In this document: in pieces, positions 6,199 to 50,105 of the stretch
How the letters are laid out: the number at the start of each line of letters is the position of its first letter
Position numbering within the stretch: the first letter of the stretch is position 1
Assembly: GCA_029204225.1 (NCBI GenBank)
Contig: CM055097.1
Span: 27,125,039-27,189,038 of the forward strand
DNA: 64,000 nt
Direction: 5' to 3'
DNA from: Diphasiastrum complanatum
Lineage: Eukaryota > Streptophyta > Lycopodiopsida > Lycopodiales > Lycopodiaceae
Program-made: the position numbers and the translations under genes
The notes under the pieces: model-generated
Seen by the model: the letters and a program-made list of their open reading frames with translations, nothing else
Databases searched by the model: none
Told to the model about the DNA's origin: nothing

Positions 6199-7230
6199 TC
6201 ACTTACCTCTTGTCGTTGATGCTGATACATTACTCGTGGCCTTTTTAACTTTTGCTCTTGTAACGGCCTTGACCATCTGCAGTTGCATTTGTGTCCGCTT
6301 CAGCTCCAAGCCAACCAGTAATTCTGTCCGTTTTAGCTCCATCTCGCACCTTAGACGCTCATTATCTTTTTGCAATTCCATCTTGTGCTGCTCAATTCTT
6401 AAAATCCCATCCATAAAACACTTGAGAGCTGGCAAAAAGCTATTCGCCTTGCGACGCTTAGCAATAGCCTTAGCTGCAAGGTTCACCTTAGTCGTTGCTA
6501 CTCCATGATTCTCTGTTCCAATGCCACGCGGAGCCCTTTGAGAAGGCGAAGTGAAGGATGCATCATCTCTTTCATTCTTTGCAGCAGGTGCCGAATCTGC
6601 AGCATTCACATTAACTCTGACCTCAGTATCCATATTATACTGTGACCTTAACCCTAATGGCATACCTTCCACCCCATTCCAAGTTGCAAAACGGTCGAGA
6701 GCATCTGCAGCTGCAGTTTTTCTGGCAATTTCATTACAGGCCAAAAGTTCACACTCCTTGGGCTTATTATCACCAAGCATTCCTTCAAACTTGTCATACC
6801 ATATCCATTTGGAAGGGCCGAAGCAAAGCCGGTCTCTCAGAGATTTTTCCTCTCTATATTTCCTCCTCAGTTTCTCCATTTTGTGCCTACATTGCTCCCC
6901 TGTTCTTGACACACCGCAGCGTAGATTCACTTCCCCTGCCACCTCTTCCCAATTACTGCACCTCAAATTTCCCCGACGCAATGCGATCCACTTCTCCTCG
7001 AATGCTTCCAGCAGACAGGCTGTGGCTATGTCGCTCCATATACTATCCTTGCGATCGCATTGGTGCTTTCCAGAAGCCTCATTGTCTGTTCCTTTCGGTA
7101 GTCTTCCGAAGTCGTCATGCATCATCATCATCGTGTTTGAGGAGCCATTGGCAGCAGCTGCAGTGGCAAGAGTAGGCGGGGAGCAAGATGCATTTGGCGA
7201 ATGTGAGGGTGTGGGATCGGATGAATACAT
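6199..7230 (-). CDS. Trihelix (Myb/SANT-like) transcription factor
   Basis: A nuclear DNA-binding protein of the plant trihelix family, closest in layout to the ASIL/ENAP-type members. From the ATG at 7230 the frame gives 343 residues. After a low-complexity Ala/Ser/Met-rich start (1-62), the trihelix domain covers about 63-145, with the spaced tryptophans in DSIWSDIATACLLEAF, WIALRRGNLR and NWEEVAGEVN, and the closing SKWIWYDKFEGML. A Glu/Lys/Arg-rich coiled coil, which such proteins use to dimerise, covers about 255-325. The frame ends in AAG AG|GTAAGTGA, a perfect splice-donor consensus just before the stop. A tttgtag acceptor at about 6110 would add about 20 residues ending near 6045. So the gene may have a second exon, or the stop may be real. 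Family members are often single-exon. The upstream leader contains a (CT)n tract. Targets are unknown. Confidence 0.88.
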   Translation of the reverse strand: MYSSDPTPSHSPNASCSPPTLATAAAANGSSNTMMMMHDDFGRLPKGTDNEASGKHQCDRKDSIWSDIATACLLEAFEEKWIALRRGNLRCSNWEEVAGEVNLRCGVSRTGEQCRHKMEKLRRKYREEKSLRDRLCFGPSKWIWYDKFEGMLGDNKPKECELLACNEIARKTAAADALDRFATWNGVEGMPLGLRSQYNMDTEVRVNVNAADSAPAAKNERDDASFTSPSQRAPRGIGTENHGVATTKVNLAAKAIAKRRKANSFLPALKCFMDGILRIEQHKMELQKDNERLRCEMELKRTELLVGLELKRTQMQLQMVKAVTRAKVKKATSNVSASTTRGK

Positions 7231-7322
7231 CACACTTCTTCAAAAGGAAAGAGATCTTCCGTTCGAGAAAAGCATGAAAAAAGTAAAGAAAAAAGAGAGA
7301 GAAAAGCATGAAAAAAGTAAAG

Positions 7323-27051: not shown

Positions 27052-27054
<3 letters not shown>

Positions 27055-27132
<78 letters not shown>
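27055..27132 (+). repeat. (GA)n microsatellite
   Basis: A perfect GA tract of about 78 bases, roughly 480 bases downstream of the end of the SdpI-like gene. Confidence 0.95.
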
Positions 27133-27612: not shown

Positions 27613-30600
27613 TCAACCAAGTAAAGGCTCGCTCAACTCATCTCTTGACAAAAGAGATGAATAGATAAAGATGTATGCATAAGGAACCAGCCATAAAATG
27701 AGGGTCCCAATAAAGAATCCAATGCCAAGTTGAGCGACCACAGAAACCACAAGCAAAACTATCCCGAATATAGGAAACACCCAACCTGCAACAGCACTTC
27801 AAAGAATCGGCTGTGTTAAGAGATTAAGCTGGAGCCAAAGAGGGCACTGCCCAGAAGATGCAATGGTCCCCGAGTGAACAAATGAAGTGAAAGCTGAAAA
27901 CATTCACATTAGCATATTTTAAATGATGGCTACACCACAAGTTCAACCTTTGTGTTAGAAGTAAGAGAGTAAGCCTTTTGTTGCAGCAAAAACAAAGTAA
28001 TCAATGAAACCTTAGGGAGTAAAACAAGTGTGTTACGAGTGGTAGAAGAGACACACCAGCATGTGCATGAGTTTTCTGCCAATTAGTTTTGCTTGCTAGT
28101 GTCCAAGGAGTCAATATTCCAATTGTGTGATTCGGCTCCACATACTGTAGTTTTCAAACAAGTCAGCTTTGTAAGAATTATCAAGCATGTAAAGTTGAAA
28201 AAGAATTTACCAAACAAGCTCTTGCTTAAAAGCTGAAAGGATTCATAGCAGGTACTCCAACTTCCTTTGCAAGTAAACTTTATATGGACTTTCTTGATCA
28301 AGAATGAGGTTAGTACCTGTAAATTGTATCCTAACCAGATGAGTAACCAGATAGAGATACTTGCTGTAAGAACTCGGGGATGAAAGTCATGGCTACTGCT
28401 AGTGGCTGCATCCAGCAGACTGAAGTTTTGGACGAAGAATAGAAACAATGCCGGCAGCACAATTATGTGGGTTGCTGCATGTTTAGAACCACCTCTATGA
28501 TCACATACGAAACATGTTAGTATGTACAAGTTGCTAGCAAAACAACTCGACATGACACACATAGAAAGAACACTACAGATGTAAAGAGTAATCAAATACA
28601 AAACAATGGTTGAGTAATAATTCCCTGGAGTATATTCTTTGATTTACTGAATGTAATCTGAAGCTATGCTAGGCTAATCTCAAGCTACTCTTCAACACAA
28701 GAAGCTAGTCTCCAGAAAATCAGCCAAGCGTAATGATGCCTTGGAAGGTACTTAAATCGTTGAGGCCCAATTTAAGGGTTATGACCTCCAAGTTAGATTT
28801 TGAGGACAATAATGATCTTTGTCACTAACCAGAAATACTGGAACATGACCGAATTTTGCAAATTCTAAATCATGCATTAGGAATGCCAGCCAAATGAAGG
28901 CATCAATATGAGCCCAACAACAGCCATATACAATAAGAACTATGCTGCATAGAAAATAATACCATGTCGGTCTACACTCTAATGGAGAATGCCACGTAAA
29001 GGTAGGAATATGAAGTACGACTAAAGCATGACCCCTACCACATGCTACTATGCCAATTGTATAGATCAAAAGTGTCACATGAAAATAACAGTAAATGACA
29101 CAATTTAAACGAGTATACTTTAGCCAGCCTGATAGACAAAAAATTCCAAGTCATATGATCTGACACATATGAATAGATCCCAAGCTAGTTGTAAGCACGA
29201 AAATGCCAACTAAAAATAGCAGAAGATGGCTTAGAGCCCTATTCATTTATATAGAGATCAAACCTATGATGTCAAAACAACAATAACTGACTCACGCACA
29301 AATGCAACCCAATCCAACCAAGTAGACCACAAAGAAGATTCATGTGGAAGGGTGCAGAGCATCCAAAATTGTGGGCCAAGATTGTATTTAAAATGGATTG
29401 TAATAGTGAATCAATTGTGATACAAATGTAATGGCCAATGGCCATAAAAGAGCACGTAAGGATGGCTCAACCAAGGAAGAGTGAGAACCATATAAGATGG
29501 AAATAATAGAGTAGCAGATAACAGGGGTTTTATAACAAGAAAACAATCATAATTAGTGAGAAGAAGAGAACCGAACATGTAGAACGAACTTTGCCGCATA
29601 TAATGAGATCACAAGCCAACCTGCTAGACAATGAGGGCTAATTTTTACACGAGACAACAATGTTAAAATAGAAACTCAAAGCCAACCCTCTAGGAGTGCC
29701 AGCCAATGGTACTATCCCAAGCTATTCGAAGGATCATGAATGGGCGCTTCAACGAATGACTCAAAGAATGCTAATAAGCCCAACCATGAAAACCATGAAG
29801 ATCATGCATGTGCCATGAACAGCGATTGCCAAATCCAAGTCTAAACTTGATGCGACACTGATAACCATAAGTGTTGAATGATTATAGAAGTAGACCCCTC
29901 GATGTCAAAGGATGCATAGTTGCCCACATCATATATCAAAGAACAACTGTAACTGGAGTGGTCACACTGCATGAGAAGCTCCTGCAAAATGACTAGAACA
30001 ATGTCACATATAAAAACCACTATAGGAATACGTGTCTCTACCGGAGGTATTCAAGATGAACTGGCTCTGCAAAAAGAAAAAGTCTGTTGCAAATGTTTGG
30101 AGTTCTAAACCACTCTTTGATGCAATTACAAAGCAGAGTAGTAAGGCTTCTTACTCACCCTCAATCTCATTATGTTAGACAAAAATCAGTGCACGGGAGT
30201 AGCTGAAACTATCAAAAACCCTTGATTGAAGATTCTTGAAACTTTAGATCCAAACAGAGAAATCTTTTATTTTACTCCTTTTCAAAGTCATACCAAACTC
30301 TAAAGCCAGCATTCCAATATCTGAGCAAATGCTCTATTCAAAGTCATACAAAATGGAGCCAAGCTCTCTCCAGTTATAAGCAAATGCTAGATTGTCTCTG
30401 CACATGCATGCATAGGAGTGGCACTCTACTTGCAAAGGTATGAAGAGCATACTAAAAGAAGCCCATAATCGTGATTGCCATATGATTTTCCAGAAAAAAT
30501 GGATGTCTGCCAAGTAGCAATCTATTTCCAAATCAGAAAACATGTGAGATTGTCTCTAGCATCTTGAAGCTTTAGAAGATTTGACCTAAGAAGAGGTCAT

Positions 30601-31835
30601 AACTTATTTGATTGAGTACATGTCAAAAAACATTTAATGCGAATAACTCAGAGAAATGACCAAGTTTCACAAAGCAAGAATGCTGGTGTTGAATGTCATC
30701 AGTGCCCAATTCTGTAAGGTCAGGAACCACTAAATAATACAGTTGCAGACGAACATTTTCAAAAGTGGTTTCCGCTACCTAATTTCCAGGAGTTCAGATG
30801 GAGATGTCGCAAGTTGTGAGGTCGATATGTAAGGATAATGGGGTGCCCTGACCCAAAGGGACCTATGAGGTGCTTACATGATCTGAGCTCAAAGCAGTCC
30901 TAAAGGATACATGTGGCACTATTTATTCTTGAAGTGCATTATATTCTGAGAGATTGACATTTCTGAGGGATTTACAGGCTGCAACGAGATTCGGCAGATT
31001 CTGTGGACTTCTGAGACCATAAAAAAGACGTGAACCATGGCATGATTTTGAATGTAACATGCCTGCAGAATCCAGATTATGAATTTGAAGTGCATAGGTA
31101 TTTTGCAAAAACAGTTTACAGTGAATAAAAAATCTGAGGAAATCGGAGGAGGATATTATAGCCTCCTATATAAAATCAAAAAGTGTGCGCCATAAAAGAT
31201 TCAGCCATAAACTAAAATGCTTTGCCAATATTTTACCCTTAAGAAAGGAATTTCTAGTGAGCTTGGATTGGATCTGACGGCCGTTCTTGGTCTAATGGCA
31301 TCGCGAATATTTTACAGCCATTTTACCAAATGGAAAGGTCACTAGATTCTCCAATGAATAAGGAGATAAATGCTGCCCAGTTTTGTTGAAAAGGTGGCCA
31401 AGTGAACTCTGCCATCCTAAATACCAGCAGGCTCAAATGCAATCTTGCATGCAATAACCACTCAAGAGCAAGGCGTATATGTAAGAAAAATGTAAAGCTT
31501 ACCCTTGCCTGCCCAGTTCCTTATCTCGTACAACAAAGAAACACACAATGAAAGGGATCAAGAGCTGCAACACTGGCAGCAAGAAGAGACCCAACCATTT
31601 GGGCACCCACAATGACGGATTCCCTGCATATTCACAATGCAAAGGCCACGCATTTGTAATGCTGCTACCTACAAATTCTTCACTCCAGGAACTGTGCATC
31701 AAGAGGATTGAAATACCACTCACCGCTAAAATCCCACCACAGCGGCACCTTGTCTGGCGTCGCTGCATACTTGAGAGCTGCAAAGACGGCACTGGAGAAG
31801 GCAAGAAGAGTTGCCAAAAGGATGGTGCTACCCAT
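27613..31835 (-). CDS. SdpI/DUF1648-family integral membrane protein
   Basis: Five exons on the minus strand: 31835-31724, 31623-31503, 28494-28317, 28144-28057 and 27785-27613. Every intron has GT-AG ends and the phases match, giving 223 residues and a TGA stop. Residues 24-50 carry the DUF1648 pattern TPDKVPLWWDFSGNPSLW, with a further KW. Residues 138-168 carry the SdpI signature EPNHTIGILTPWTLA..NWQKTHAHAGW, where bacterial proteins typically have PNYFIGIRTPWTL and W.KTH. About six membrane segments fit (near 3-21, 47-68, 86-102, 117-135, 168-187, 188-208). Length is close to the bacterial protein, about 207 residues. In Bacillus, SdpI protects cells from the SDP killing peptide and holds the repressor SdpR at the membrane. 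The role in a plant is unknown. Intron 2 is about 3 kb with no recognised gene. The 5' leader is purine-rich (gagaagagaagagaag). The gene model is inferred without transcripts. Confidence 0.85.
28495..31502 (-). other. Large intron 2 of the SdpI-like gene
   Basis: About 3 kb between donor ggGTAAGC and acceptor tcatAG. Reading both strands I see only short frames and no transposon protein motif. An open frame at 28779-29078 is hydrophobic, but it has no matching splice phase and would interrupt the domain, so I treat it as intronic. Confidence 0.65.
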
Positions 31836-46916: not shown

Positions 46917-47452
46917 TTATATAGCATTCTCTGCTAGCTGGAGTGTGTGCAAGGGGTCTTCAAAGTGATTTTCTGTATCTGGTTTAACATCATCATCATC
47001 CTCAGCAGGAACAATGTGCCTCCAAAACCAGTGCTCTCTCCAAAGACTTGACATTTCTTCTATAGGGACATTTCTGGTCTCAGGAAGGAACAAGTAGACA
47101 TATATTGTCATGGTAGCTTCCCACCCAGCAAAAAACAGAAATATTCCCCACTTGAATTTACACAGCATGGCGAGAAATGCTTGTGCAATGGCAAACGTGA
47201 ACAAAAGGTTAACTGAAACTGTGATGCTTTGGCCAGCAGAACGAGTTTCAAGGGCAAATATTTCACTGGGAACTAGCCATCCCAAACCAGCCCAAGACCA
47301 TCCGAAGCCAGCCACAAACACACAGATGAACACCACAACCAGAGCTGAATAACTCTTTTCAAGTGAGACTTGATGTGGTCCATATTTAGCTTGCAGTACA
47401 ATAGCTATGACCACCTGCACAAACAGGTAAGGTTAGTGAAAACAAAGTTTGT

Positions 47453-47531
<79 letters not shown>

Positions 47532-50105
47532 TGGAGTAAATTTGCGTTGTGATCATTGTTTACATCTCGCATCTGCATGTGACATCGTCCACATTGATAA
47601 ACTCTTACAAAAGACCTATCAAATTTTAGCAGCACATAACCAACTGCACAATGATTTTCAGAAACTGCAATAGTTAAAGGTGACTGTACAGGAAGGAAAA
47701 CTCAAGCCCAGAAAAAGCAATTACACGAATTACTCACTGCCTTTTGCCACAGATAGTCAAGTTCTGCTTTTGTAAGGTTTTCTACCGTAAAGGCCATAAG
47801 GTGGCACACAGTAAGAGATGCATCCATCACAGGAGATCGCCAGGATTAAGCATGGCAATTGGAATTTATCTGGGTCATACATATAAGAGGTCACGTATAG
47901 ATTGGTATGTGGTGAATACTGAAATGGGTACATAAGCAGACTGTTATATACTCTACAAGATTAAAACAAAGAAAGATGAATAATTCAAGCACGTGTACGT
48001 GTTAGTGCAAGAGAATTATGTTTCTCGATTCTCGATCAAATAATGAATGCTGAATACTTTAAACAACCCAGTTCAAGACAGGCACCTGACAAAGCTTCGT
48101 GTTTTAAGTCAAACCTCAACTATGTTCTGTTGTTGGGCCATATGGCTTTGTTTCACCTCGTTCATAAACAATTTCTTCAAATGTGAATCGTAATTTCTTT
48201 GCACTGTGGAATTTTGACTGTTCTAGCGTACTGTTCATCGTGAAGAATTGTTTAAGGTCCTTGTTACAAAGGCAGGAAGCCATAGCTGGCAGCATAAAAT
48301 TTGGTGTAGTAGCTTATGTCGAACTTCAAAGTGGCTATCCTAGTGCAATATATTCCTAATTGCTTGTGTGACAATTGAACCCAAGCAGCTCCCTCAATTT
48401 AAGATGAGAAAACACTTTTTTATGTTTACACTTGAGTTAGTAAGTTACCTGACTCAATACCATCTGTATGCCACCAACCATAAAGAGAAATCTCCTTCCC
48501 CATCTGTCAACAGTGGCAATAGTGACTAAGGCCCCCACCACCATCACAGCTCCTGTTATGACAGATGAATAAAGAGAAGCATTTGTTCCAAAACCCAAAC
48601 TATTGAAGAGTACTGGGGCATAAAATAGGATTGAGTTGATCCCGGTCAAAAGCTGAAAGGCAGGAATCAGGATTGCCATGACCAACTGAGGCCGATTTCG
48701 TCTCTTGAGAATGTTTCTGAAGGGATGCTCAACTCTACTGGCAATGTCACTTGCTTGTACAAGATCTTCAAACTCTAGAGCTACATTGGTTGTGCCTCTT
48801 ATCTTCTCCAGCACTTTTCTTCCTTGTTCCAAGTAGCCTCTTTCAACAAGGCTGTTTGGAGTTTCAGGAAGAAAAAGCCCACCAAAGGTCATCAAAGATG
48901 CAGGCACAGCAGCTAGTCCCAACGACAGCCGCCATCCCCATGGTGTCAATCGTTGAGTCCCATAATTGACAAGATTTGCAGAAAGTATACCAATAGTAGT
49001 GGCAAGCTGGAACAGCATGTTTAAACCTCCCCGCAAATTAGCAGGTGCCATTTCTGATAAATATACTGGTACAGCCTGCAATTGAGATCACATACTCAAA
49101 ATGGCTGCGATGGATCTCTGGTGAATCAAAAGCATCTTTGCTGCAGTATTGAGATGAAAACAAGTTGGCGCAGGATGCTCAGAAAGGGCAAGTTTACATC
49201 TTCGTATACTACTCTGAACAAGATCTTGTAGTTAATCTTGAGCTGGAAGAGAGGCCAATTAATGGAAAAGGCAGTTTAAGGTGAGCGTTGCAAAACCAAG
49301 CTGCAGTTTAAATAACACTGCAGCTTTTTCTCTGGAAAATTTCAATTGGCAAAAACTCAACCAAAAGCTCAATTGCAGTAATCTCTCAAAGTATGAAGAC
49401 GCACAAGCAGTGGTGAACTAACCTGATTACCAAAACCAACGCCTATACCAAGCATGATTCGACCACAAATAAGCGTCGGCAAGTTCATTGCTACTGCATT
49501 AAGACCAGCTCCAACCAGAAAAGAGAATCCACCGATCAAAATCGTTGGTCTTCGTCCCCATATTCTTGTTGTATAAGAGGCTCCGAAGGTGGCAATCAGG
49601 CCAGCAATATACAACGATGAGGTGAAAGCCGCAAGGCCCTGGTTATCATACTTGCAGTAATTATTGTATTGGGAATTCGGCTCCTTCTTTTTCCTTTCCA
49701 CTACTGGGAAGAATTTTTGCAAGAAGTCATCCATGGATGTTACTCCGCCTTTAGGCCGGTACAACATCAGCTGGTTTAGTTTGATCGTTCAAAATCTTCC
49801 AAGCAAGTAATATATGGATTAAGGAACAGAAAGAAAACATGAATCGGCAAAAAAAAACTCCGGTTTATGATACTGATAGGTAGGATTGAGTGATTCAAAG
49901 TGTTTATTGCAAAAGCAGCATAATCAAAGACCTTCGGTTGAAGCAAGAAAAGAAAAGAATTAACTTCACCTGAGATTCCAATATCATATCCAAAGAGTAG
50001 ACCTGCGCTAGCAGCCACAGTACAAGCCAGCACAACATAAGCAGTGGGACGTCCATCATACTGCCTGGACTGATCTCTTCTCACTGCAAAAACACCCCCT
50101 GCCAT
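46917..50105 (-). CDS. STP-type monosaccharide/H+ symporter
   Basis: Plasma-membrane hexose uptake protein of the plant STP (major facilitator) family. Four exons, 50105-49970, 49748-49423, 49075-48449 and 47414-46917, have GT-AG introns and join in frame to 528 residues, the usual STP length. The start MAGGVFAVRR is typical. Markers: GLLFGYDIGISGGVTSMDDF (about 36-55), whose Asp is the proton site in STP10; NNYCKYDNQGL, the lid cysteine region; GRRPTILIGG; GRIMLGIGVGFGNQ; VPVYLSEMAP; FLPETPNSL; QLLTGINSILFYAPVL near 285, which binds sugar; VDRWGRRFLF; LVPSEIFALETR; LCKFKWG, the partner cysteine; FLPETRNVPIEEM; and HWFW near the end. All diagnostic residues seen are intact, so a working gene is likely. 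Intron 3 holds a CT/GA microsatellite. The exact sugar preference cannot be read. Confidence 0.95.
47457..47527 (+). repeat. (CT)n microsatellite in STP intron 3
   Basis: About 35 CT units, read as GA on the gene's strand, roughly 45 bases upstream of the exon 4 acceptor on that strand. Confidence 0.95.

Follow-up and report, generated by a model that had tools for sequence, protein, structure and literature searches.

A divergent land-plant branch of the SdpI/DUF1648 membrane-protein family in the clubmoss Diphasiastrum complanatum

In Bacillus subtilis, the membrane protein SdpI makes the cell immune to the SdpC toxin and sequesters the repressor SdpR at the membrane (PMC1626106). YfhL is described as a paralogue of SdpI, and YfhLM as also protective (PMC8144471). 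SdpI is reported to give no protection against the related YIT toxin, whose antitoxin is YitQ (PMC6818787). SdpC binding is ascribed to helices 1-3 and SdpR binding to helices 4-6 in PMC11995493, which names SdpI as the sole family member characterised so far and predicts an N-out, C-in orientation for a three-helix relative that matches SdpI helices 4-6. In a paper of 2026, SdpI is termed a lipoprotein (PMC13343845), a label that does not fit the six-helix description of the protein. Another family member, TrpP of Corynebacterium glutamicum, has three helices, matches only the C-terminal, SdpR-binding half of SdpI and is described as living without SdpR or SdpC (PMC11995493).

Here, we analysed a window of 64,000 nucleotides from the clubmoss Diphasiastrum complanatum (C6:27125039-27189038, on a contig of 75.6 Mb in an assembly of 1.74 Gb), in which a sequence-only reading had noticed a spliced gene of this family. 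Judged from its sequence, the encoded protein is a member of a divergent land-plant branch of the known membrane-protein family. It has both Pfam domains of SdpI and YfhL in the same order, six predicted transmembrane helices where TrpP has three, and most of the GIxTPWTL..W.KTH signature. It differs from SdpI and YfhL in that its gene contains introns, the residues His33, Asp/Asn41 and Arg148 are replaced, and its C-terminal motif is unseen in 117 prokaryotic relatives, an aligned set that does not include B. subtilis SdpI itself. Like TrpP, the plant protein appears to exist without SdpR.

The window gene and its copies in the clubmoss genome

The gene occupies positions 31835-27613 on the minus strand, where five exons of 112, 121, 178, 88 and 173 bases join into an open reading frame of 223 residues plus a stop codon, with GT-AG borders at all four introns and cumulative phases of 1, 2, 0 and 1. 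According to the splice model, Pfam and AlphaFold2, exon 1 (31724..31835, start codon at 31835) encodes TM1 and the first half of the DUF1648 hairpin (TPDKVPLWWDFSG), exon 2 (31503..31623) encodes the second half of the hairpin and TM2, and exon 4 (28057..28144) encodes the SdpI signature loop IGILTPWTL..W.KTH, the linker of TM4 and TM5. Exon 3 (28317..28494) contributes TM3 and TM4 (splice model and AlphaFold2), and exon 5 (27613..27785) contributes TM5, TM6, the C-terminal EPLLG and the stop (splice model, AlphaFold2 and motif count); all lie on the minus strand. Intron 2 (28495..31502, minus strand) measures 3,008 bases, compared with 367-701 bases in four paralogues.

The window protein is identical to the public entry P0001, O6H91_06G055600 of D. 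complanatum, listed as hypothetical. Because this entry is an annotation of the same species' genome, it is no independent proof of the gene model. The gene model is independently supported by four further loci with the same exon 1-4 lengths and the same phases, and by a Selaginella protein with 55% identity over its full length. The five exons, GT-AG borders, matching phases and 223 residues of the sequence-only reading are thus borne out by the joined frame and the paralogous loci, and the gene is a real, intact five-exon member of the SdpI/DUF1648 family in the nuclear genome of the plant.

Pfam matched PF07853 (DUF1648) at residues 10-58 with 43.9 bits (cut-off 28.7) and PF13630 (SdpI) at residues 140-204 with 52.3 bits (cut-off 28.2). 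An intron interrupts both matches, that of PF07853 between exons 1 and 2 and that of PF13630 between exons 4 and 5. For the relatives P0002-P0004, the scores were 46.5-50.8 for PF13630 and 32.8-42.3 for PF07853; the Riccia protein P0011 scored 45.7 for PF13630 and 20.5, below the cut-off, for PF07853, and the fern protein P0012 scored 23.4, below the cut-off, for PF13630 and 32.0 for PF07853. AlphaFold2, with 76 aligned sequences, predicted six long helices (2-21, 46-70, 79-109, 117-136, 156-183 and 188-217), a short extra helix (72-76) and a strand pair (29-34 with 40-45) in the DUF1648 hairpin, at a mean pLDDT of 94.6. The window protein therefore carries PF13630, PF07853 and six predicted transmembrane helices, and the Pfam matches and the predicted helices agree with the earlier description of a six-helix protein bearing both hallmarks of the family.

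Ten other open reading frames of the window were scanned for domains; one was Myb/SANT-like, two were of the sugar transporter type, four were retroelement frames and three were blank. The retroelement domains (Copia-type gag, gag-pre-integrase with integrase, RNase H and SH3_retrovirus) all lie beyond 36.6 kb, and the three frames scanned below the gene gave one Myb-type match and two without a match. Plant transposons, which had been placed on both sides of the gene, were therefore found above it and not below it in the ten frames scanned.

PF13630 was found at six places in the Diphasiastrum genome: C1, C2, C6 (the window), C8 twice and C15. Five of these loci are intact, namely the window, C2, both C8 copies and C15; they share the exon 1-4 lengths 112/121/178/88 and the phases, and all donors are GT, in paralogue splice chains built by a script that used known plant proteins as a guide and selected acceptors with a terminal AG. 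The C1 place holds exon 4 alone within the 9.9 kb fetched. A protein search of the genome added partial places: a second one on C2 (exon 3, with residues 89-137 identical to the C2 protein), two on C7 (exon 2) and one on C17 (exons 1 and 2). These five partial places, which were left out of the gene count, could be remnants, or else genes whose introns are long. The two C8 copies have identical coding sequences and 99.55% identity over 9.86 kb, and lie about 186 kb apart in opposite orientation, which fits a recent duplication and an assembly artefact alike. The dN/dS ratio was 0.156 for C2 versus C8 (dS 0.45) and 0.11-0.13 for C2-C15, C8-C15 and C15-window, at a dS of 1.95-2.65 that is near saturation; between the window gene and C2 or C8, synonymous change is saturated (pS 0.77-0.78, pN 0.24). 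The five-locus gene set is clearly under purifying selection.

Prokaryotic neighbourhoods and residue changes in the plant branch

Prokaryotic loci were the best 80 of at least 573 confirmed; as their selection rested on similarity to the query alignment, shares among them are no census. A same-strand open reading frame lay just upstream in 56 of the 79 loci examined, and 55 of these frames were scanned (the 954-codon frame of locus L064 and 51 downstream frames were left out). The SdpR autorepressor family (NCBIfam, E 1e-5 or better) was directly upstream in 31 of the 79 loci: 31 of 39 outside a clade of archaea, Patescibacteria and Chloroflexota in the 135-row tree described below, and 0 of 40 inside it (phmmer; the unscanned L064 frame falls inside). 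Eight upstream neighbours were Band_7/HflK-like. Members of this clade, such as P0005 from Diapherotrites, have the same domains as the window protein; P0005 is 23-25% identical to it, and the grouping of the branch with plants is not supported (55/38). Since 40 of the 79 prokaryotic loci belong to a clade with no SdpR found upstream, the absence of SdpR alone does not imply a new function. HTH_20 (PF12840), the repressor domain, had no match in the Diphasiastrum genome, in a search that was positive in 14 of 14 control genomes; compared with the SdpC-SdpI-SdpR system, no SdpR-type repressor was found in the clubmoss by this domain.

Residues were counted in 19 plant proteins (18 retrieved and the C8 copy) and 117 prokaryotic proteins. 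His occupies position 33 in 116 of the 117 prokaryotic proteins, and Trp stands there in 18 of the 19 plant proteins. At position 41, all but one of the 117 prokaryotes have Asp or Asn; 1 of 19 plants does so, most of the others having hydrophobic residues there. Arg or Lys stands at position 148 in all 117 prokaryotes and in none of the 19 plants (Leu in 10, Pro in 8, Ile in 1), Pro being the fern replacement. The window protein has W33, S41 and L148 at these positions, which are near-invariant in the prokaryotic relatives fetched and lie outside any published family definition that we met. Other residues are kept in plants: W34 and G133 in all 19, S209 in 18, and N142, G146, W159 and H163 in 17 each. 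Because the pattern behind 79 of the prokaryotic rows fixes G146, P150, W151 and T152, those residues are uninformative in these rows; the pattern allowed R or L at 148 and did not extend to 33 and 41.

TPWT occurs in 109 of 117 prokaryotes (79 of those rows were found by the pattern that fixes P150, W151 and T152) and in 9 of 19 plants, namely in all 5 lycophyte proteins, in 4 of the 6 from Riccia and in none of the 8 from ferns. Its loss from all eight fern-clade rows and two of the six Riccia rows means that one common plant function is not assured. Close to the C-terminus, [EQR][PA][LF][LVIT], a pattern chosen after viewing the plant sequences, was present in 16 of 19 plants and in none of the 117 prokaryotes. 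Three plant proteins are exceptions, among them P0045, a prematurely ending record of 185 residues.

Possible functions of the plant protein

The best explanation overall, which we consider reasonably probable, is that the gene belongs to a land-plant SdpI/DUF1648 clade that was once transferred from a prokaryote, and that its scaffold has been repurposed. On the sequence data, the repurposed scaffold would probably serve as a receptor or anchor in the membrane and work with a new partner. A mechanism can be proposed tentatively, and its details are rather doubtful: the SdpI scaffold would sense a hydrophobic ligand or buffer the membrane, with a new cytosolic partner and a role for the C-terminal motif. 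The plant protein would keep the six-helix scaffold: the aromatic DUF1648 hairpin that joins TM1 and TM2 would lie on the side opposite the cytosol, and the TPWT loop that connects TM4 with TM5 would face the cytosol. The protein would no longer be partnered by the SdpR repressor. A peptide or lipid may be sensed or bound on the outer face, or the membrane may be buffered against it; the outer-face event would be coupled to a different cytosolic partner, and the C-terminal motif may serve sorting or partner binding. This sidedness is inferred from the N-out, C-in prediction given for the three-helix relative in PMC11995493, and loop charges leave the topology unsettled.

A repurposed sensor or anchor is our best guess for the plant protein, with a transport or lipid role and a kept peptide tolerance as its main rivals. 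The plant protein might be a transport or lipid-handling protein unrelated to peptide sensing, SdpI immunity being one bacterial use of an old scaffold. The prokaryotic clade without upstream SdpR (0/40 loci) and the eight Band_7/HflK-like neighbours are in keeping with such a role, as is the description of SdpI as the only family member characterised so far (PMC11995493); however, the sequence of the window protein itself offers no positive evidence of transport or lipid handling, and we regard this possibility as unlikely, if worth keeping in view.

Alternatively, the protein may have kept the job of SdpI and give tolerance of membrane-active peptides, the plant's own or those of soil bacteria, with no need of SdpR. 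Protection against the SdpC toxin is reported for both SdpI and YfhL (PMC1626106, PMC8144471), and seven residues from W34 to S209 (W34, G133, N142, G146, W159, H163 and S209) are retained in 17-19 of the 19 plants. However, plants have other residues in place of H33, D/N41 and R148, which hardly vary among prokaryotes, and the protection given by SdpI can be narrow, extending to SDP but not to the related YIT peptide in the account of PMC6818787; we consider kept tolerance improbable. SDP-type peptide immunity with repressor capture, which the sequence-only reading had named as the established role of the family, was not supported for the plant protein: the case for it is weak because HTH_20 has no match in the genome and the three near-invariant residues are replaced.

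Distribution and origin of the plant branch

A search with the single window protein retrieved 10 proteins, of which three belong to Diphasiastrum and one to Selaginella moellendorffii; the remaining six include one from a Diapherotrites archaeon. A profile of four plant proteins retrieved 35 proteins among the best 7,996 candidates and added Riccia sorocarpa and Adiantum nelumboides. With six plant proteins in the profile, the search retrieved 31 among the best 7,998 candidates, 18 of them of plant type: three from Diphasiastrum, one from Selaginella, six from Riccia, three from Adiantum, two from Ceratopteris and three placed among ferns by the tree. Riccia is a liverwort, and Adiantum and Ceratopteris are ferns; the divergence of liverworts from vascular plants dates back to the crown of the land plants. 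The matches listed, from a set that includes EukProt, named no seed plant, moss, hornwort or alga, nor any other eukaryote; the three protein searches need shared five-residue words, and these absences are provisional. The C8 protein was itself absent from the matches listed in all three. P0031, from the four-plant profile search, combines ArsR-type domains and an SdpI domain in a single chain. Among the matches listed in the open-licence PubMed Central literature, there was no report of a characterised plant SdpI protein, consistent with the sequence-only reading, which knew of none.

In a quick tree of 135 rows, the 18 plant rows formed one clade (SH-aLRT 100) on a stem of 1.78 changes per column, in which the six Riccia rows (96) are separated from a group of lycophytes and ferns (87, drawn open). 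A careful tree of 71 of 136 rows, which omits the plant rows P0045-P0048, P0012 and P0040 and many prokaryotic rows, also placed its 13 plant rows in one clade (100/100, stem 1.51). It grouped the ferns (100/100), Riccia (98/96) and three Diphasiastrum copies (92/85), and did not resolve the order of lycophytes, ferns and Riccia. L011 (truncated at a contig end, 165 aa), P0008, P0031 and P0032 are in neither tree. A single origin of the plant clade is well supported by these sequences.

One long-branch plant clade at 100/100 favours one old acquisition from a prokaryote, and transfer is the simplest reading because no other eukaryote was found among the matches listed. Early land plants thus probably acquired the gene once, and parts conserved in bacteria have changed since. 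The best supported inference is one transfer in or before the ancestor shared by liverworts and vascular plants, followed by intron gain and vertical descent in the spore-bearing lineages sampled; elsewhere, the family would have been lost or escaped detection in the searches made. As for the donor, plants join the archaea/Patescibacteria/Chloroflexota clade at a support of only 55/38 in the careful tree. Profile scores favour this clade only slightly (median 66 versus 59 bits elsewhere, p 0.012); the top scorer lies outside it and the best scores are scattered across several prokaryotic groups, with no one group standing out as the donor. The source that had been proposed as bacterial is therefore better described as prokaryotic, since the scores of relatives from archaea, Patescibacteria and Chloroflexota are similar to those from other bacteria. 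Likewise, the choice previously offered between an old acquisition and a neglected eukaryotic family proved right on both sides in part: the plant clade is of apparent prokaryotic origin and spans a liverwort, lycophytes and ferns.

If the family were instead old in eukaryotes and lost nearly everywhere, no transfer would be needed, and the long plant stem and missing donor group would fit such an age. However, very many losses would be required, and no non-plant eukaryote was named among the matches listed by the word-based searches, EukProt included; we think this quite improbable. Contamination, against which the sequence-only reading had also argued, or a gene-model artefact has a negligible chance: four GT-AG introns are common to five intact loci, which already excluded contamination, both domain matches straddle introns and are thus unlike an unspliced prokaryotic contaminant, the gene lies on a 75.6-Mb contig and relatives occur in other plants.

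On the boldest reading, to which we give rather less than even chances, early land plants turned one prokaryotic SdpI-type gene into a new kind of membrane receptor or anchor. Polar residues that are near-invariant in prokaryotes would have been swapped, a C-terminal motif added and TPWT lost in ferns. The gene would have multiplied in spore-bearing plants, with five intact loci in the clubmoss and six or more proteins in Riccia, and been lost towards seed plants, which apparently have no such family member. This uncharacterised land-plant branch of a prokaryotic immunity and signalling family would add a membrane protein to the genes of early land plants that apparently came from microbes. 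The natural variants at His33, Asp41 and Arg148, and the ferns without TPWT, would be useful to work out which parts of SdpI do what, and the plant SdpI branch is directly testable in Ceratopteris or Riccia.

Further family members in the Diphasiastrum genome

Contig C8 of the Diphasiastrum complanatum assembly carries two full family copies, L089 and L090, which lie at about 49.48 and 49.67 Mb and are mutually inverted. Their coding sequences are identical, and the two loci share 99.55% identity across 9.86 kb, representing either a recent duplication or an assembly artefact. The protein they encode was absent among the Diphasiastrum proteins listed in our protein and profile searches.

The assembly also contains five partial family members, around each of which 9.9 kb was fetched: a lone exon 4 on C1 (L087:4904-5002), an exon 3 piece on C2 (L104:4812-4958), exon 2 twice on C7 (L105 and L107), and exons 1-2 on C17 (L106).

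Other features of the window

A GA dinucleotide run of ~80 bases occupies window positions 27054-27132, ~480 bases past the stop codon of the SdpI-family gene. A domain scan of open frames revealed a minus-strand frame with a Myb/SANT-like domain (6199-7233) and two minus-strand frames with sugar transporter matches (46917-49081).

Family members in other plants and in prokaryotes

The TPWT signature was found in none of the eight fern-clade proteins (P0012, P0037, P0040-P0045), all of which carry V-P-V/I-F residues at that position. Four Riccia sorocarpa members (P0038, P0039, P0047 and P0048) have nearby locus numbers (R1sor_003685, 003692, 003717 and 003718) and sit on contigs of equal length, a combination that suggests a local array.

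Among the best 80 of 573 confirmed prokaryotic loci (L001-L080), Band_7/HflK-like proteins account for eight of the upstream neighbours. Within the same set, the family splits into two parts: one with the ArsR-type repressor SdpR directly upstream (31/39 loci), versus an archaea/Patescibacteria/Chloroflexota clade in which SdpR was found directly upstream in 0/40 loci.
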